Shown here piece by piece: positions 2,060 to 15,159 of a stretch of DNA of 15,159 nucleotides. Under the pieces are notes generated by a model. The model was not told where the DNA came from. It did not search any database and saw nothing but the letters and a program-made list of their open reading frames with translations. This DNA is from Bdellovibrio sp. GTDB lineage: Bacteria; Myxococcota; SpSt-1050. The position numbers and the translations under genes were made by a program. Every line of letters begins with the position of its first letter. The stretch's first letter is position 1. The stretch lies in assembly GCA_020725805.1 (NCBI GenBank), contig DYEF01000054.1, positions 1-15,159 of the forward strand, given 5' to 3'.

Positions 2060-3475
2060 TTATTCAATAAAATGACAATTGCAACCTGATGAATCGTTTG
2101 CGGCTCCCGGTTGTGAATCTGGTCTTACAATAAAGATATCCGATACAATATTGACATCAGATGAATCCCTTCCGGTATCTTTTGGAATTTCTGCGGCATC
2201 CTGTATGCCCGCATCCTTTATCTCTGTATCAGAATAATTTGTATCCTGAATAAAAATATCCGCTTCTTCATAATAGTCGGTTATGACATCAATAATATCA
2301 TTTGCTGAACCCGTATCAGTTAATTCGGATATATCTTTAACATCAACAGAAAGACTATCTTCAACAGAGATATCTTCATATCCGGCATCTGCAAGAGGAT
2401 TCCCCTTGGTCCAGTTAAAACAATCCATTACCGTCCCGTCAACCCTGTATGCACAACCGGAGACATCGGGTCCGTACACATTAAAAACCACATAATGCAA
2501 TACCGATTCCGAATATATTGTGTATTTTGACGTCCCTGAACTATACAGCGGCGCCCCACCACCACCCGCAACCATATATCTCAGCCCTTCTGCCTCTCCT
2601 CTCTCATAATTATGGTCGTGGCCAGCTAGCGTCATATCAACTCCATACTTTTTCAGAATAGGAACTACCTTGCTCTTGGCCGTAGAATTATCTCCGTGAT
2701 TGCTTGCCGAATATGGTCCGTGGTGCATTACGGTAAATATGTGGTCGATTGAGGGATTCTCTGATGCTGCTTTCAGGTCAGATTCAATCCATTTCAGTTG
2801 GTCACTGGAAAACGTCAGTAATCCATCATAAGTATTAAATACCGAGATATGGATATTAGCAAAATCGAATGAATACCACTCTTTATTTTGTGAATTCTTC
2901 TGAGGCGGAAAGATATATTTCTTATATATTGTCAGAGTCGGGTCGATTACCTCGTGATTGCCGATCGCCGGAAAGATACAGATATTTCTCAGAAGCTCCC
3001 TCTCTATCTCAAAAAACTTCTGATAGTCATCTGCCGAGATACCCGATTCGACGAGGTCACCTGTGTTTATTATAAACATCGGATTCTCTTTTATTATGGC
3101 ATCCACCACTTTCTGATGGTCGTTGAGATTTGTCCTGTTGTCACCATAAACAATAAATTTTACAGGCTTAATCGTTACAGGAAATGTCCTGAAATAACCC
3201 TTCTTGCTATCGCCCTCCACCTGATACTCATATTCTCTGTCAGGTAGAAGTCCTGTAAGAAGGAGATTATGAAAAGTGCCGGATGAACTCTCCTCGACAG
3301 ACCTGTCAGGAAAGCCCCTGAGCCCGTAGACCACCCTCCCTTTATTTGCGGATGAGGTCTCCCACAGAATTCTCACCGAGTTTGCAGATAACTCCTGAAT
3401 GTAAGGTCCCTTCTTAAACTGCCCGAAGACAGAGAGCGGAAGCAAAACGAATAGAATAGTTATGTATAGACGCAT
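2060..3475 (-). CDS. Secreted purple-acid-phosphatase-like metallophosphoesterase with acidic tail and GCxC C-terminus
   Basis: 471 aa. A signal peptide (about 1-18, cleavage likely after VFG) is followed by a fibronectin-III-like N-terminal domain (about 22-105) as in purple acid phosphatases, then a calcineurin-like catalytic domain. Metal-binding motifs are GDNR (111-114), GD (139-140), GNHE (172-175), HH (251-252) and GHDH (285-288), so all five blocks are present and activity on phosphate esters is expected. Residues 361-463 are a low-complexity linker rich in Asp, Ser and Thr with repeated DAG/DTG triplets. The protein ends Ser-Gly-Cys-Asn-Cys-His-Phe-Ile-Glu, closely matching the end of the beta-helix protein at 11938-13626. 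The start is supported by AAGGAGA five bases before the ATG. The substrate is unknown. It is probably periplasmic or on the cell surface. Confidence 0.88.
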   Translation of the reverse strand: MRLYITILFVLLPLSVFGQFKKGPYIQELSANSVRILWETSSANKGRVVYGLRGFPDRSVEESSSGTFHNLLLTGLLPDREYEYQVEGDSKKGYFRTFPVTIKPVKFIVYGDNRTNLNDHQKVVDAIIKENPMFIINTGDLVESGISADDYQKFFEIERELLRNICIFPAIGNHEVIDPTLTIYKKYIFPPQKNSQNKEWYSFDFANIHISVFNTYDGLLTFSSDQLKWIESDLKAASENPSIDHIFTVMHHGPYSASNHGDNSTAKSKVVPILKKYGVDMTLAGHDHNYERGEAEGLRYMVAGGGGAPLYSSGTSKYTIYSESVLHYVVFNVYGPDVSGCAYRVDGTVMDCFNWTKGNPLADAGYEDISVEDSLSVDVKDISELTDTGSANDIIDVITDYYEEADIFIQDTNYSDTEIKDAGIQDAAEIPKDTGRDSSDVNIVSDIFIVRPDSQPGAANDSSGCNCHFIE

Positions 3476-4081: not shown

Positions 4082-5068
4082 TTATTCACCCGGCACACAA
4101 TAATATCCGGAGGTACAGGTATAACCTGAGGGACACTCTTTACCAACTATTCCGCACTTCTGTCTGCATACCTTATTATTAATCGGGAATCCGAATCCGA
4201 CACATTTGTAATTCAGGTCGCAGTCACAGTCCGTCTCACAGGGGGCATTGTCGACACCGGTCCCCTTAGAGCAGGCTATCGGATTATCTGTACAGCAGAC
4301 AGGACAGGTCTCCTTAAGTTCCCATTTTGAGCCGTCGGATGCACATATATAGATATTCTTGCCGTCAGTGCACTTTATCTCGCCCGGGTTACACTTTGGC
4401 TGAGGCTGGTCCTTACAATGGTCGATATAACAAAATGTATCATATTTCTCCTTGCAGTTTTCCACAATTGTTGACCACTTCGTACCGATTTCGTTACACT
4501 GCAACAGATCGTCGGTTACACATTTACCATCGGGGTCAATATATTTGCCCCCGCAGCAATGATAAGATAGAGGTTCACAGATAACTTTCTCTTTTATACA
4601 ACCGGTGATATCACAGCCTGTTATACAATATTTAGTCGAAATACCTGCATCATCAGTCACAATAATATCACACCTGATCTGGCAGGACTCAATCATTATA
4701 AACATAGTCCCGTCGCCGTTGCACTCGTACAGGTCACCCTTGATGCACTGCCTCTCCTTGGGATTACAGATCTTCGGATTCCCCTTATCTACCGGACCCG
4801 TATCCTTTACCTCATCTTCGGCAACAGCAATATCTTCCTCAGGCTCAGATGTATCTTCTTGAATAGCAATATCTTCCTCAATCAGAATCTCATCTGTAAT
4901 ATGACCTGAATCCAGCGGTATGCACTTCTTCCCGTAAGGCTTTGTTCCGGCAGGGCAGTTCAGGACATCTTCGCCCGAACCCGTAGCCGAATCAGAGCAT
5001 TTGACAAAAACGAATACAAAAAAGAGAAAGAATAAAAACACAAAGATAAGATTGAATAATCTATTCAT
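4082..5068 (-). CDS. Cys-rich modular surface protein, putative lipoprotein, unknown function
   Basis: 328 aa, not assigned to a named family. The N-terminus is a very Phe-rich hydrophobic segment (4-22) ending Lys23-Cys24. Cys24 could be lipidated, but Lys just before it is unusual for a lipobox, so a plain membrane anchor is possible. A CPAG...KKC loop follows, then an acidic linker (about 54-95) rich in Asp and Glu. Beyond it are Cys-rich modules of similar layout (Cys-x5/6-Cys-x-x-Gly...Cys-x-x-x-Gly...Cys-x3/5-Cys), starting at CNPKERQC, CEPLSYHC and CNPGEIKC, and a last Cys-dense region (CETDCDC to CTSGYYC). Such disulfide-rich modules are common in secreted proteins of Myxococcota-like bacteria. 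It lies 46 bases after the FTR-rubredoxin gene on the same strand. No Shine-Dalgarno is visible; a -10-like TAAAAT lies seven bases before the ATG. Confidence 0.75.
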   Translation of the reverse strand: MNRLFNLIFVFLFFLFFVFVFVKCSDSATGSGEDVLNCPAGTKPYGKKCIPLDSGHITDEILIEEDIAIQEDTSEPEEDIAVAEDEVKDTGPVDKGNPKICNPKERQCIKGDLYECNGDGTMFIMIESCQIRCDIIVTDDAGISTKYCITGCDITGCIKEKVICEPLSYHCCGGKYIDPDGKCVTDDLLQCNEIGTKWSTIVENCKEKYDTFCYIDHCKDQPQPKCNPGEIKCTDGKNIYICASDGSKWELKETCPVCCTDNPIACSKGTGVDNAPCETDCDCDLNYKCVGFGFPINNKVCRQKCGIVGKECPSGYTCTSGYYCVPGE

Positions 5069-5114: not shown

Positions 5115-5636
5115 CTACAAAAACTTCTCGAATCTCTCCCGCCTTGCCTTGCATATCGGACAGACATCGGGCGGATTCTCCCTTGCTGCAAGATATCCGC
5201 AGACTGTGCATCTCCAGACGGGATACGGCAATTCCGACGGGAGTGATTTTTTCGGCTCTCCTGCCTTCCTTCTCTCCTCTTCAGATGGTCTCCGCTCCGG
5301 AATAGGCCTTATCTCAACCTTCTTCTCATAGGCATCCTTTGATACATAGAGCCCGCAGTAGCAGGCGTTATATTCATTGATATCCTCATCCCGGTAGATG
5401 CAGGGACAAATTATATCCATATCCCTCTCTTTTTTGCCGTCAGCCAGTCTGCAGGGGCAGGCCCGGTATCCGTATCTCTTCTCATTTATTATTAGCGACC
5501 TGACGAGTAATTTTGTAAACTCTTCATCAGGATTGAGAAAGTAACCACCTTCTTCAGCCTCCTTTTTGAGTCTCTGATAAAGTCTCTCTATCTCTTCATT
5601 TGAAGGTTCATAATCAAACTTTTTAATCTTACTCAT
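5115..5636 (-). CDS. Ferredoxin:thioredoxin reductase catalytic-chain domain fused to rubredoxin
   Basis: 173 aa, cytoplasmic. The N-terminal domain (about 8-105) has the three Cys pairs of the FTR catalytic chain: CPCR at 60-63, CPC at 77-79 and CYC at 92-94. By alignment with the plant/cyanobacterial enzyme, Cys60, 77, 79 and 92 would bind the 4Fe-4S cluster and Cys62-Cys94 would be the redox disulfide. The His of the usual CHC is Tyr93 here. A charged linker (about 106-137) leads to a compact rubredoxin domain with WRCTVCGY (142-149) and DVCPIC (157-162), which binds one iron. FTR-rubredoxin fusions are known as ferredoxin:disulfide reductases in methanogens. The gene overlaps the upstream glutaredoxin gene by four bases (ATGA), so the two are translationally coupled and the glutaredoxin is the likely partner. 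No FTR variable chain is present nearby. Confidence 0.9.
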   Translation of the reverse strand: MSKIKKFDYEPSNEEIERLYQRLKKEAEEGGYFLNPDEEFTKLLVRSLIINEKRYGYRACPCRLADGKKERDMDIICPCIYRDEDINEYNACYCGLYVSKDAYEKKVEIRPIPERRPSEEERRKAGEPKKSLPSELPYPVWRCTVCGYLAARENPPDVCPICKARRERFEKFL

Positions 5637-5976: not shown

Positions 5977-6034
5977 TATTTGCTTGATAAATCAGGTAAA
6001 GTCTGTAAACCTGCACCAGTTCAGGGAGGTAATT

Positions 6035-7447
6035 GTGAAATCTGACTTTATTTTTCTTCTGGCTATAATACTGGTTGCCGGATGTCTCGGCGAACGTTCT
6101 GAAAATTTTGAAGGTGAACTGACGGACATTAAGGCCCCGGACTCATCTGACACAATAACTGATACAGGTTACCGGACACCAATAGAAACCGCAATATGCG
6201 GACTCAGTAAGTATGAATGGATTGAGCCGGACAAACTCGGTATAGTCACCAGAATTGAGGAATTACCGGAGTATTCTCTCTCAAAAGAGGCAATAAAGAG
6301 TCTTCTCAAGGATTATGCCGGGGCTGACTTTATTGAAATCAAATATGATGTAAGGGTTTTAAGATTCAGGTACAAGACACAGAACAAAGGAGTTGAGACA
6401 GAGGCAACGAGTACATTCGGAGTACCGGTCCCTCCCGAAGGGGAAGAGATAAAATCTCCTGCTGTGTTATGGCTCCACGGGACAACTGGTTTTATGGACA
6501 ACTGTGCACCGGGCCGCACTGAAGAAGGGGCTTATCCGATGGTACTGATGGCAACTCAGGGGATGATAGCAGTCGGGCCTGACTACATTGGGCTCTCGAG
6601 CTTCGGGGAACCATCAACTGTAAAACACCCCTATCTCGGCATTGAAGCAACAGCAATTGCATCCCTCGACGCACTAAAAGGCGGAATTTCGCTTATTAAA
6701 AGACTGAAATTGCCGGTAACTTTTGACAACAGGGTAATTCTGTGGGGAGGTTCTCAGGGCGGACACGCGGTATTTGCATCAGAACTTATGGCACCTTACT
6801 ATGCACCTCAATACAACTTTATCGCAGCGATAGCCCTTATACCTCCAACGAATCTGATAGACGCGGCCCGTGAAGCACTGTTGAGGTTTGGCAATGACAC
6901 AGTAACGCTTGCAGCTGTAATGATTGAACTCTCTAGATGGTACGAAATTTTTAACCGTATGAGTTATGTAATACGGAATGATGAACCATCAAAACCGCTC
7001 GATACTCTTACAAATCTTATGGATACCAGATGCGGGACCGGAGATTCCCAATATAAAATCGACTCACCCGATGACCTATACACAGAGGAATTCATAGAGA
7101 ATGTCACTAATAACAACTGGAAGGATTTTGAAGATATAAAGTGTATTCTCAGGGAAAATTCCCCCGATTTTACATATATTAAGAGAAAATCTGATACACC
7201 TTTTTTATTTGTGCTTTCGGAAAATGATGAACTTGTGAACACCCCTGTTGAACGGCAGTCATTTACAAGACTTTGCAATATGGGATACAAAATGAAATAT
7301 CTGGAGTGTGCGGGCGCATCACATACACAGGGAGCGGCGTGGTCAGTCAAAGAGCAGTTCGAGTGGTTAAAAGATAGGCTCAACAATGTCGGGATGACCG
7401 GAGTCTGCCAGATCAACGAACCTGTCAGATGTTCGGGGACGAAGTAA
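6035..7447 (+). CDS. Lipoprotein alpha/beta hydrolase, secretory-lipase-like
   Basis: 470 aa from the GTG at 6035. The frame is open from TTG 5984, but GGGAGGT (6024-6030) lies five bases before the GTG, and this start gives a proper lipoprotein signal with LVAGC, lipid Cys17. A short Asp/Ser/Thr linker follows (about 27-46). The hydrolase fold shows LWLHGTTG (146-152), GPDYIGL (181-187), HPYLGIEA (198-205) and the nucleophile elbow GGSQGG (Ser240). Asp398 (SENDELV) and His430 (GASHTQG) complete the likely triad. The DYxGL...HPYL pattern recalls the secretory lipase family, so an ester or lipid substrate is likely but not proven. It probably sits on the outer membrane. It is divergent from the glutaredoxin operon and convergent with ftsY. 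Confidence 0.87.
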   Translation: MKSDFIFLLAIILVAGCLGERSENFEGELTDIKAPDSSDTITDTGYRTPIETAICGLSKYEWIEPDKLGIVTRIEELPEYSLSKEAIKSLLKDYAGADFIEIKYDVRVLRFRYKTQNKGVETEATSTFGVPVPPEGEEIKSPAVLWLHGTTGFMDNCAPGRTEEGAYPMVLMATQGMIAVGPDYIGLSSFGEPSTVKHPYLGIEATAIASLDALKGGISLIKRLKLPVTFDNRVILWGGSQGGHAVFASELMAPYYAPQYNFIAAIALIPPTNLIDAAREALLRFGNDTVTLAAVMIELSRWYEIFNRMSYVIRNDEPSKPLDTLTNLMDTRCGTGDSQYKIDSPDDLYTEEFIENVTNNNWKDFEDIKCILRENSPDFTYIKRKSDTPFLFVLSENDELVNTPVERQSFTRLCNMGYKMKYLECAGASHTQGAAWSVKEQFEWLKDRLNNVGMTGVCQINEPVRCSGTK

Positions 7448-10829: not shown

Positions 10830-11936
10830 ATGACGGGAAAACCGAATATCATCTTTCTGCTCCTTGCCGGTACAATCCTTATTCCGCCGTTATTTTCATC
10901 TGAATTCGAGGGATTTATCCCTCATTGGCAGACAAGACTCACAGAGAATCTGTTTGTCTATAAACCATTTGAATACTCCGGGTGTGTACTCGACAGCGAA
11001 TATCAAAGGATATTCGTAACCAACAGAAACGGTGAAATAATCTCGCTCGATTCGGTAACCGGCGGAATAGAATGGAGATTTTCTCTCAAACACCCTATTC
11101 ACCTGAAACCGGTATATTCGGAAGGAATCCTTTTTGCTGCAAGTACAGGCGGGGAGATCACCGCCCTCGATGTCTCGAAGGGAAAACCGCATATAATATG
11201 GCAAAAGGAGATACCCGGCGGTATTATCAGTGATATAACCACCAGTGACCAGAAAATATTCATACTTACCGAAAGAAACACACTGTATTCGATTTCTGCA
11301 AAGGACGGCTCTGTTATTTATCATATAGGCAATGACCTTACCGAAGGTTTTACAGTCTATACGAACACCCCTGTAATTCTGCTCGGAGAAAGGCTCATTT
11401 ATACACTTTCCACAGGTGAATTATACGTCGTCAATAAAAATGACGGAAAACTTATCTATAAAATAGGGATATACAACCCGGATGACAAAATTGACGGATT
11501 TACGGGTCTTACGGCTGATTCCGAAAGTATTCTTCTCTCGACCCAGAGCGGGCTCCTGTACAGAATCGGGACCGAGAGCGGAAAGATAATCTGGTCCCGC
11601 ACACTTGCGCAGATATCCGCAATAAAACGGGATGAAGAAAGCAGAGATATATTTGTCTTTCACAATGACGGAACGATCGCCGTCTATGACCCGGACGGCA
11701 AGACAACAAGAAAAAAGGTCTTTCTGAAGAAGAATTTAATCGGTGCAGACATCAGCGGGGGAAGAATTATTGTCAGATATTCCGACGGGAAGATGCTGCT
11801 ACTATCCAAAAACGACCTTTCCCTTATTTCCTCAGTCAGGCTCAGTTCTCCGGTTCTGGCAAAGATCACATACGACCAGAGATACGCCTACGTATTCTCG
11901 TCAAAGGGTTCTCTCATCAAATTTCTGATTAAATAG
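10830..11936 (+). CDS. bamB: BamB-like PQQ-repeat beta-propeller protein
   Basis: 368 aa. A signal peptide (about 1-24, PPLFSS then EFEG) precedes a chain of PQQ-like beta-propeller repeats, with recurring units such as NGEIISLDSVTGGIEWRF, GGEITALDVSKGKPHIIWQK, TGELYVVNKNDGKLIYKI and SGLLYRIGTESGKIIWSR. BamB is the propeller scaffold of the BAM complex that inserts outer-membrane proteins. The position behind a YfgM-like gene supports this role. Unlike E. coli BamB it has no lipobox Cys: the first Cys is residue 52, in the mature part, so it would be soluble periplasmic unless held by partners. The ATG has no clear ribosome site and lies five bases after the previous stop, suggesting translational coupling. 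A general PQQ-repeat protein is the alternative. Confidence 0.78.
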   Translation: MTGKPNIIFLLLAGTILIPPLFSSEFEGFIPHWQTRLTENLFVYKPFEYSGCVLDSEYQRIFVTNRNGEIISLDSVTGGIEWRFSLKHPIHLKPVYSEGILFAASTGGEITALDVSKGKPHIIWQKEIPGGIISDITTSDQKIFILTERNTLYSISAKDGSVIYHIGNDLTEGFTVYTNTPVILLGERLIYTLSTGELYVVNKNDGKLIYKIGIYNPDDKIDGFTGLTADSESILLSTQSGLLYRIGTESGKIIWSRTLAQISAIKRDEESRDIFVFHNDGTIAVYDPDGKTTRKKVFLKKNLIGADISGGRIIVRYSDGKMLLLSKNDLSLISSVRLSSPVLAKITYDQRYAYVFSSKGSLIKFLIK

Positions 11937-11937
11937 C

Positions 11938-13626
11938 CTATTCAATCAGAACACAGGAGCAGCCCGAATCTGCAGATGCTCTCTCACCATAACCGGAATC
12001 GGCAATATCAGTCTTTGCAATATCATACTGAAGTGAATCGCTCTGAAAAGTATCGGCAGCAGTTATACCATCTATATTTTCTGAATCACAGGAATTCTCA
12101 CAGAAATCATTTGAAATATCTGAACTGATGTCAGAGAGTGCTGTATCTTCACCAATAACCGAATCATACAAATCAGTATCCTGACTCAGGGTGTCAGTCA
12201 CATCAACCGTATCAATACCCGCATCTGCAATCTGCTTTACGAACTCGAAAGCGCCCATATCTAAAACTCCGTCCTTAAATCTCATTTTCCCTGCCCTGTC
12301 TTCTGTAAATTCATATTCGGGAGATGATAGTGAATATTTACCCAAATCCGAACCCTTATCGATACATTCCGAGCCAACGGCAAGATGAAAATCATTATTA
12401 CCAAAGTCAATAAATTGCGGATCCGGAGAACTGATGTTCCCCCCTTCATCCAGAACGATTGCGTCCGGATTACTATGGCTCTTTCTGTACCCTGAATTCA
12501 TCCAGTTGCTTATCAGGTGTGCCTTCCCGTCCGATTCCAGAACGGCAAGTCTGCTTCCACCCGCAGTAGCGTATATTATATTGTTGATGATATAAGCCTC
12601 TTCTTCAGGACTCGAGAGCCTTACAAGGGTTGTATTCCCGCTGCGACTCGATATAACTGTGTTGTTGTAGAAATAAAGGACTCCTTTCCGGTAATTATCC
12701 GTGTTGCCCGAATCACCTCCGTAGTGAACAATCTGAGAGTTACCGGCGCCATCCGGTTCGACGAGTATATTTCCGTACACATATGTCTTATGATAATACT
12801 CTCTTTCCAGCAACTCCTGATGGCTGCTATCTACAAGGTCCAGCTGACGATTGCCGGATTCTATGAAATTATATCTGATTATAGTCCCTGCAGACCTGTC
12901 TTTCAGATTATTTCCTCCCGCACCCCCGATGAGCGGTCCGAATCTGTTGAACTGATATATTATCCCATCAGATTCAGTGTATGTGTTGTGTTCATAGATA
13001 CTACCTGCATTTCCGTTACCGTAAATATTGTTCGATTCAATCAGCACATTCTTTGCCTGATACGCAACAAATATGCCGTTGCCGTTATTGTGTATGATGC
13101 AGTTTCTGATGGTGATGTTCTCTCCCTTCTCGACAAAAACCGCCGCAGAATTATTCTCATAGGAAGTAAGACCGTTTCTGCCGGTAAATGTATAAGGTGT
13201 ATGTGCATTCACAATCTCAAGATTTTCTATGATAACATAGGCAGGCAAAGTATCCGGCGGATTATTACTGCCACCAATCTTGATGATTCCTCTAACCTCG
13301 CTCCAGAAGTTGAGTCCCTTTCTGGTAACTGCATCCCTTCCGTCAATCACCGGAAGATTACCGTTTGCATCGGGGACTCCGGAAAAAATGACCGGATTCT
13401 CCTTTGTACCGGTCGCCGTGATTACCCATTTTTCCTTATATGGCTCCTTGCGATAATAAATAAGAACCTTATCTCCCGCCTTTATACTCTCGAGCGGCAC
13501 ATCGGAGATATTTAAGTACTTCTTACCTTCACCAACCTCATACACCTCTGCCGACAACAGATTAATCTCTGCTGCAAAAAACAAATACAAAACCAGTGCC
13601 AGTCCATATACAACACAACTTTTCAT
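11938..13626 (-). CDS. Secreted parallel beta-helix protein with acidic tail and GCxC C-terminus
   Basis: 562 aa from the ATG at 13626, which has GGGAGGG (13634-13640) seven bases upstream; a TTG directly before it is less likely. A signal peptide (about 1-26) leads to a right-handed beta-helix with pectate-lyase-like coils: IIENLEIVNAH, ITIRNCIIHNNGNGIFV, VLIESNNIYGNG, and NNLKDRSAGTIIRYNFIES-type turns (239-257), a pattern seen in putative polysaccharide-degrading enzymes. The domain closes with DMGAFEF (456-462). Residues 465-553 form an Asp/Ser/Thr-rich linker with DAG/DTD triplets and one Cys pair (CENSC). The end is Ser-Gly-Cys-Ser-Cys-Val-Leu-Ile-Glu, like the phosphoesterase at 2060-3475. 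No catalytic residues are certain, so binding or cutting a surface glycan is inference. It follows the propeller gene after 19 bases, probably in one operon. Confidence 0.85.
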   Translation of the reverse strand: MKSCVVYGLALVLYLFFAAEINLLSAEVYEVGEGKKYLNISDVPLESIKAGDKVLIYYRKEPYKEKWVITATGTKENPVIFSGVPDANGNLPVIDGRDAVTRKGLNFWSEVRGIIKIGGSNNPPDTLPAYVIIENLEIVNAHTPYTFTGRNGLTSYENNSAAVFVEKGENITIRNCIIHNNGNGIFVAYQAKNVLIESNNIYGNGNAGSIYEHNTYTESDGIIYQFNRFGPLIGGAGGNNLKDRSAGTIIRYNFIESGNRQLDLVDSSHQELLEREYYHKTYVYGNILVEPDGAGNSQIVHYGGDSGNTDNYRKGVLYFYNNTVISSRSGNTTLVRLSSPEEEAYIINNIIYATAGGSRLAVLESDGKAHLISNWMNSGYRKSHSNPDAIVLDEGGNISSPDPQFIDFGNNDFHLAVGSECIDKGSDLGKYSLSSPEYEFTEDRAGKMRFKDGVLDMGAFEFVKQIADAGIDTVDVTDTLSQDTDLYDSVIGEDTALSDISSDISNDFCENSCDSENIDGITAADTFQSDSLQYDIAKTDIADSGYGERASADSGCSCVLIE

Positions 13627-13645: not shown

Positions 13646-15159
13646 TTACGGCCTTGACCAGTTCACCTCTACATCAGAGACAGATGGTTTGACGCCGTTC
13701 TGGGTAGTCCAGAGTCTGAAATCCACCTGCAGCCAGCGGTTGCCGTTTAAAAACGGACAGGTAGTCAGGTCTGCCGGAGACTTTGTAAACGGCCCGCAAT
13801 ACTGTGTGGGATTCGTCTGAAGTTCACCGGCGGTCTTTGCTGCCCTTACCTGAACCTCGACACCTGTTCCCTGAGGCTCTACGGATTTCCATACAACACT
13901 ATAATAAATCGGATTGGAATAACCCGTATCGAAGTTCTGTATCCAGTGTCCGCCCTTTGCAGTGATTGAACCAAGCTGCATACCTGTCATATCGGAGTAA
14001 GTATAGAGTTCCTGACCCTTATCCACCTCGTAAGCCGCCAGAAAATTACAGTTTTTATCATAGACAAGGGCATATCCGCCATATCTCAGGGGCATCCAGA
14101 CCCTACCATCTGCTGCAACAGCGATACCATGAGGATTTGACCCATATCCGCCCGGGATATTCTGTTTGCACAGCACATTACCGGTCACATTATCTATCTT
14201 GATAATGGTTCCGTTCCCGTAGCCGGAACCCCAGACTGAATTGTCATCCGGATGAACTGTCACTGCCGTATAGCCGGTGCCACTCTGGGAATTCTTGACC
14301 TGACCCGTCTTTGAATCGAGCATATGAATAGGACCGCCTCCACCATATCCGCCGTACCAGACATTGTCATTCTTATCAACTGCAACACCATAATAGACAT
14401 TGTCATTATAGTACTGAACCACCTGCCCGGTCTTTGTATCTACCTTTGCCTTCTTTGTGGGACCTGCGGTCCAGAGATAACCTGAACCATCAATCGCGAG
14501 GCCATAAATATTGACTCCGGTATCATAGATACCAACGACTTCACAACGCGGAGGGTTCTTGGAATTGTCAACTTTGTTCGGATGAACCTTATAAAGCTTT
14601 CCTGTATCCCAGATACCTGCCCACACATACCCTTCGGCATCTATTGCCACACCCCTGACTCCGGCACTTGTCGTACCTACTGCATCTGCCCTGCAGATGA
14701 GATTTCCGTCAAGGTCAAGGTGAACAAGGTTCGAGGCATCCGGGCTCGAGGGATTGGAGAAGCCACGGTTCCCTACCCAGACAGAATAATCGAATGCAAC
14801 TGCTGTCCTCGATGGATATGTTCCATAGGATGGCTTCTGCCACAACTTCTGACCTGTGCTCGTATCCAGTTTTGCCACCTGATTCTTTCCTGTCACCGAA
14901 ATATATATAAAAGGAGTCTTCGGAAGTGCCTTCTCGGAGAGCGTAATAGCATTAGGATTGTTCGGGTCTGCTTCGACAGAATCACAGGTCCTGTCGGGAT
15001 AATTACAATCGCCGGGTTTATCATAATCCTTCGTATAGCAGGAGTCGTCACACTTCCCGCAGGCATTTATATTCTCATCCGTCAGACCGTTACAGTCATT
15101 GTCCTTATTATCTCCGCATACCTCCTTTACAGGCAGCACCTCCCCCTCACACCCTCCCC
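13646..15159 (-). CDS. Secreted beta-propeller protein with MopE-type metal-binding motif, N-terminus missing
   Basis: At least 503 residues; the frame runs off the right edge, so the GTG at 15139 is not the start. Codons before it read GGCEGE, and the joined sequence gives the Cys...VCGDNKDNDCNGLTDE motif of MopE-type metal-binding proteins. A second Cys cluster follows (CGKCDDSC...CNYPDRTC). The middle is a virginiamycin-B-lyase-like propeller of at least five blades with a repeated pattern of Gly-x-Val/Leu-Trp ... Asp-x-x-Thr-Gly-x-Val (for example GYVWAGIWDTGKLYKV, DNVWYGGYGGG, NSVWGSGYGNG, GRVWMPLRYGG). The C-terminal 80 residues (EPQGTGVEVQVRAA ... NRWLQVDFRLWTT) resemble a beta-sandwich domain of large surface proteins. 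Function is unknown; extracellular location is likely. The beta-helix gene lies 19 bases downstream. Confidence 0.83.
   Translation of the reverse strand, partial: GGCEGEVLPVKEVCGDNKDNDCNGLTDENINACGKCDDSCYTKDYDKPGDCNYPDRTCDSVEADPNNPNAITLSEKALPKTPFIYISVTGKNQVAKLDTSTGQKLWQKPSYGTYPSRTAVAFDYSVWVGNRGFSNPSSPDASNLVHLDLDGNLICRADAVGTTSAGVRGVAIDAEGYVWAGIWDTGKLYKVHPNKVDNSKNPPRCEVVGIYDTGVNIYGLAIDGSGYLWTAGPTKKAKVDTKTGQVVQYYNDNVYYGVAVDKNDNVWYGGYGGGGPIHMLDSKTGQVKNSQSGTGYTAVTVHPDDNSVWGSGYGNGTIIKIDNVTGNVLCKQNIPGGYGSNPHGIAVAADGRVWMPLRYGGYALVYDKNCNFLAAYEVDKGQELYTYSDMTGMQLGSITAKGGHWIQNFDTGYSNPIYYSVVWKSVEPQGTGVEVQVRAAKTAGELQTNPTQYCGPFTKSPADLTTCPFLNGNRWLQVDFRLWTTQNGVKPSVSDVEVNWSRP

Follow-up and report, generated by a model that had tools for sequence, protein, structure and literature searches.

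Why should two secreted proteins of unrelated fold finish in the same short cysteine motif, each directly followed by a stop codon? The question is raised by the window, the whole 15,159-nucleotide stretch of DNA analysed here, in which a calcineurin-like phosphoesterase and a right-handed beta-helix protein (folds assigned by Pfam) both possess a signal peptide, an Asp/Ser/Thr-rich linker and a C-terminal Gly-Cys-x-Cys tail. The initial annotation located both tails correctly, GCNCHFIE with its stop at 2086-2060 and GCSCVLIE with its stop at 11964-11938 on the minus strand, and its observation that their codons differ is borne out. The features are:

2060..3475 (-), secreted calcineurin-like phosphoesterase, 471 aa, with the tag at its C-terminus (Pfam PF00149, E 6.5e-17)
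3419..3475 (-), N-terminal signal peptide of the phosphoesterase (MRLYITILFVLLPLSVFGQ), a hydrophobic N-terminus
2087..2392 (-), Asp/Ser/Thr-rich linker before the phosphoesterase tag, read from the translation; other tagged proteins have a like composition
2060..2086 (-), helix-free C-terminal tag of the phosphoesterase, GCNCHFIE (2086-2063) plus stop (2060-2062)
11938..13626 (-), secreted right-handed beta-helix protein, 562 aa from the ATG at 13626, with the tag at its C-terminus (Pfam PF13229, E 1.9e-7)
13549..13626 (-), N-terminal signal peptide of the beta-helix protein, a hydrophobic N-terminus
11965..12228 (-), Asp/Ser/Thr-rich linker before the beta-helix protein tag, read from the translation
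11938..11964 (-), helix-free C-terminal tag of the beta-helix protein, GCSCVLIE (11964-11941) plus stop (11938-11940)

Nothing follows the tag of the beta-helix protein, since a convergent gene ends at 11936. Three other exported-looking proteins in the window, at 4082-5068 (-), 5984-7447 (+) and 13646-15157 (-), lack the tag (two have a lipobox-like N-terminus, and one is beta-propeller-like with its N-terminus off the window), so export here does not in general go with the tag. The window also encodes, at 5115-5636 (-), a ferredoxin-thioredoxin-reductase beta-like domain fused to a rubredoxin-like domain. A search for loci related to the phosphoesterase among named genomes found none.

To count tagged proteins we searched genomes by DNA pattern, by profile and in fetched stretches, with the reversed pattern as a control. 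The genus is represented by the window's genome (G000; 3.29 Mb, 98% complete) and by a single other genome (G167), and a third genome of the same order, G166, comes from a related family; all are draft MAG-type assemblies. The ending GCxCxx[FLIMV]E-stop has 17 matches in G000 and 13 in G167 against none for the reversed control in either, so that, as the initial annotation had anticipated, further signal-peptide proteins carry the ending well beyond chance. In other Myxococcota genomes the same pattern gives 0-1 matches, and the controls likewise 0-1 except for a few 2s. Relaxing the pattern to GCxC, any residue, two hydrophobics, any residue and a stop yields 36 matches in G000 (control 1) and 23 in G167 (control 0), and GCxC followed by any four residues and a stop occurs at 69 places in G000 (control 22), which on reading divide sharply into very short chance frames and long exported proteins. 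Long exported proteins with the tag number at least 46 in G000 (two of them cut at contig ends) and at least 28 in G167, where L276 is a further tagged protein beyond these 28. A profile of the tag, run over 195 Myxococcota genomes, returns 35, 14 and 24 matches in the three tag-bearing genomes and at most 2 in any other. We rejected the one or two profile matches in each of the other genomes as background (E 0.016 or weaker), and also 13 relaxed-pattern matches in G008, among them a repeated motif with TGG in place of the stop, along with unrelated sequences. Among the 195 genomes, the tag is thus confined to the two genomes of the genus and, in a looser form, to G166.

Across 74 tails, in which the Gly and both Cys are fixed by the search pattern, the core of the tag reads G-C-[SG]-C-[S/N/A/T]-hydrophobic-[ILV]-X-stop. 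The residue between the cysteines is Ser in 65% and Gly in 26%; the first residue after the second Cys is Ser (54%), Asn (18%), Ala or Thr, the second is Leu, Phe, Val, Ile or Tyr, and the second-last of the protein is Ile, Leu or Val in 71 of the 74. The last residue varies (Glu in 42%, also Asp, Phe, Asn, Tyr, Lys, Arg, His, Leu and Met). Of the Ile-Glu ending proposed in the initial annotation, the hydrophobic Ile part therefore stands, while the fixed Glu gives way to a free last residue. The cysteines lie at -5 and -7 from the C-terminus. When the profile is run in this genus with the stop not forced, nearly all tails still extend four residues past the second Cys (three have five), so the tail length is genuine and does not just reflect the search pattern. 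By a simple hydropathy rule, the N-terminus of every full-length tagged protein (66 of 66) is as hydrophobic as a signal peptide, and none of the 74 tails includes an Arg-rich C-terminal cluster. No coherent helix was found upstream or downstream of the tag in the tagged proteins of the two genomes. In L081, L091, L097 and L181, an apparent lipobox-like N-terminus accompanies the C-terminal tag, which would give these proteins two possible anchors.

Each of the 28 listed tagged proteins of G167 has a tagged reciprocal-best partner in G000, although two of the pairs are weak. Across the 26 others, which are strong, Gly, Cys and Cys are invariant and the last four residues change within residue class, while linkers are 43% and protein bodies 70% identical. 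These comparative data refute the notion that the shared ending stems from frameshifts in the assembly, from chance or from a recent duplication of DNA, and we give it practically no weight. The tag recurs in two genomes independent of each other and in a third, related genome, and its genes use all three stop codons (28 TAA, 28 TGA, 18 TAG). A frameshifted or read-through helix past the stop was sought in 102 downstream frames and rejected, with 3 weak helix-plus-basic matches and no coherent pattern, in agreement with the initial annotation, which had thought a lost helix unlikely. Finally, the 46 tagged proteins of G000 form 26 separate homology clusters and show variety at third codon positions, as expected from the initial proposal that the tag is conserved at the protein level and is not a recent DNA copy. 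The cargo includes proteases (subtilase, thermolysin/fungalysin-like and papain-like), an amidase, a peptidyl-arginine deiminase, a heparinase/alginate-lyase protein, carbohydrate-binding proteins and propellers, and so resembles the adhesins and hydrolases described as clients of the MYXO-CTERM sorting signal (PMC11980579).

Is the tag, then, related to MYXO-CTERM? In M. xanthus, that signal joins a GCGC-type motif to a membrane helix and an Arg cluster, and is processed by the CPBP protease MrtX, whose cleavage requires the tag's Cys residues (PMC11980579). The model for MYXO-CTERM, TIGR03901 (cut-off 20 bits), has matches in 181 of the 195 Myxococcota genomes at E<=0.01 and none in G000 or G167 even at E<=1. 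Since this search overlooks some divergent helix-bearing tags (that of L241 is missing from its matches), absence from the genus also rests on the tag profile: among the matches read in G000 and G167, which cover all but a few weak ones, no confident one is followed by a helix, and the sole long-tailed match (L275, E 0.79) lies at an internal position and does not look like a helix.

Orthologues in G166 reveal where the tag comes from. L090 and L105 end in GCSCSLIE and GCSCNLLE before the stop, and their G166 orthologue L046 ends in GCGCASVGAGDDAGLLALLAVLGAALAALRRRR and a stop: GCGC, then a helix, then RRRR. Similarly, L134 ends in GCSCSALF and a stop, and L065 of G166 in GCACASVGTGG, a helix, RRR and a stop. 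Because orthologues carry the form with helix and Arg cluster, we consider it highly probable, as judged from these alignments, that the tag is a helix-free derivative of MYXO-CTERM. G166 itself is in an intermediate state, with helix-free and helix-bearing tags side by side. Of 25 profile matches read in this genome, 24 are helix-free, with tails extending 3-22 residues past the second Cys (five residues in 12 of the 24), and one has a helix and basic end; at least four canonical helix-bearing tags are present in all (the one profile match and at least three read separately). The phosphoesterase of the window has a full-length orthologue there (L267, 44.6% identity) that ends in GCSCTVIDFGVR and a stop. 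Contamination of G166 by the genus was considered and rejected, as its GC content is 0.62-0.68 versus 0.35-0.44 and its tag-bearing contigs match it in GC.

The initial annotation had suggested that the tag may serve Cys modification or anchoring, as we also propose below, and had treated it as related to, and distinct from, MYXO-CTERM; the relation and the helix-free form hold up, and its independence does not, given the canonical form in the G166 orthologues. As the tag lies outside the definition of MYXO-CTERM (helix, Arg cluster, TIGR03901), we do not file it as a member and class it, by its sequence features, as a derived variant, which probably works like MYXO-CTERM. We found no report of a helix-free MYXO-CTERM in open-access papers.

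If the genus has lost the helix, has it also lost the enzyme? Each of its two genomes encodes one CPBP protein over the PF02517 cut-off (L075 and L076; G000:C2 and G167:C109), and both pass the Mrt_core model NF040914 (117.7 and 108.9 bits against a cut-off of 100), so that the co-occurring myxosortase-type protease envisaged in the initial annotation exists in exactly one copy per genome. The two proteases fall below the MrtX, MrtC and MrtP equivalog cut-offs, scoring best with MrtP (159 and 153 against 250), MrtC and Mrt_core; their MrtJ scores (78 and 72 bits, cut-off 75) are far under those with MrtP and MrtC. Alignments show that both keep the catalytic EExxxR, H and HxxxN of these glutamic proteases. 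In a phylogenetic tree they lie, with moderate support for the placement, beside a group containing the G166 enzyme and Myxococcaceae, on a stem of 1.5 changes per site that is far longer than their relatives' internal branches; such a branch is as expected if the substrate had changed. The gene neighborhood is common to the genus and G166, with a recognisably similar adjacent gene product (read from translations, unscored), and the type II secretin GspD is present. A PDB sequence search with the protease gave no match, and neither did a Foldseek search with the low-confidence AlphaFold model of the G167 enzyme (pLDDT 57) give a meaningful one.

We propose that the tag is probably a CAAX-like, helix-free derivative of MYXO-CTERM, in which a Cys would be lipidated and the last residues trimmed by the myxosortase. 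The tag, its descent from MYXO-CTERM, the loss of helix and Arg cluster and the retention of a single myxosortase can be read from the sequences. Beyond these, we infer lipidation, cleavage and its site, and the surface location of the tagged proteins, and the chances for the complete mechanism of lipidation plus trimming are nearly balanced. In this mechanism, a tagged protein would be exported by Sec, after which one motif Cys would be lipidated in the inner membrane. The myxosortase would read the lipidated Cys and the short aliphatic tail, as Rce1 reads CAAX, and cut distal to the Cys, so releasing the final few residues; type II secretion would then take the lipid-anchored protein to the cell surface. 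As a holding anchor, the helix would be superfluous. In the published model, where lipidation ahead of cleavage is a hypothesis, the helix keeps the substrate membrane-bound so that it can be lipidated (PMC11980579), and the acyl-transfer step is accordingly harder to picture without one. The long branch of the protease and its scores below the MrtX, MrtC and MrtP equivalog cut-offs also speak against the mechanism, and the protease may have been kept for another reason.

Two other readings retain the tag and alter what becomes of it. The gene may already encode a near-mature end, with the Cys lipidated and anchored without cleavage, and the myxosortase kept as a relic or for a few other substrates. 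The tails do stop a few residues past the Cys, and the protease sits on a long branch below the MrtX, MrtC and MrtP equivalog cut-offs; yet all its catalytic residues are kept in both species, although no other client class was found, and the last four residues hold to a hydrophobic-then-Ile/Leu/Val pattern of near-fixed length that would be needless in a leftover. We judge this reading unlikely. Less likely still is a tag without lipid, in which the CxC tail would serve in targeting or docking, whether to the type II system or a surface partner, or as a disulfide tether, and would have ceased to be a site of lipidation or proteolysis. The helix and Arg cluster are indeed gone, the two Cys are invariant (in a set defined by that pattern) and a type II secretion system is present, but the Cys of the ancestral signal is needed for MrtX cleavage (PMC11980579), and the myxosortase has been kept.

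Compared with known systems, the tag and its enzyme share with MYXO-CTERM and MrtX, MrtC and MrtP the exported proteins, the acidic or Ser-rich linker and the C-terminal Gly-Cys-x-Cys, as well as one Mrt_core CPBP protease per genome, type II secretion and cargo of the surface-hydrolase type. The Cys signature (GC[SG]C in most tags of the genus, GCxC in all) aligns with the GCGC or GCAC of the orthologues. Unlike MYXO-CTERM, the tag has no membrane helix or Arg cluster, stops about four residues past the second Cys and shows the hydrophobic-[ILV]-X pattern; TIGR03901 finds none of these tags, and the enzyme is below the three equivalog cut-offs. JDVT-CTERM with MrtJ and Synerg-CTERM with MrtS likewise pair an invariant-Cys tag with a related CPBP protease, and these two signals keep the tripartite form with helix and basic end. 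The eukaryotic CAAX/Rce1 pathway, as on Ras, has in common with the tag a very short tail after the Cys, an aliphatic second-last and a free last residue, and a protease of the CPBP/Rce1 superfamily. In contrast to CAAX proteins, those of the genus are exported, their Cys lie at -5 and -7 and not at -4, and the tag has no known prenyltransferase step and derives from a helix-bearing bacterial signal. Eukaryotic farnesyltransferase does accept CaaaX pentapeptides (PMC8584866, PMC11121372).

In the myxosortase literature, the chief C-terminal sorting signals described for bacteria and archaea (LPXTG, PEP-CTERM, PGF-CTERM, GlyGly-CTERM and MYXO-CTERM) all have three parts, one of them a membrane helix (PMC11980579). 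A whole tagged set that has shed the helix yet kept the protease therefore bears on whether a myxosortase reads the helix or the modified Cys, and the tag connects the CPBP sorting enzymes of prokaryotes with the CAAX logic of Rce1. We see an even chance that this is a true bacterial CAAX-like pathway, in which the genus's whole tagged surface set has switched from helix-bearing MYXO-CTERM to a C-S-aliphatic-aliphatic-X tail, with periplasmic Cys lipidation, trimming by a re-specialised myxosortase of the Rce1 superfamily and a living intermediate lineage that has both forms. As small natural substrates, the short tails could also help to identify the acyl-transferase. Genome annotation that relies on the current model overlooks every surface-tag client of such lineages, and helix-free tails with other motifs are possible in other lineages.

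G188, G191 and most of the small genomes of family f22 encode a Mrt_core protease and have no TIGR03901 match. The tag profile has no match in G188, G191, G173 or G178, and the myxosortase clients of G188, G191 and f22 may carry yet another form of tag. Outside Myxococcota, a Desulfurobacterium MAG contig (L278, JALSLT010000032.1) encodes a CPBP protease with 40% identity to the myxosortase of the genus over the catalytic half.
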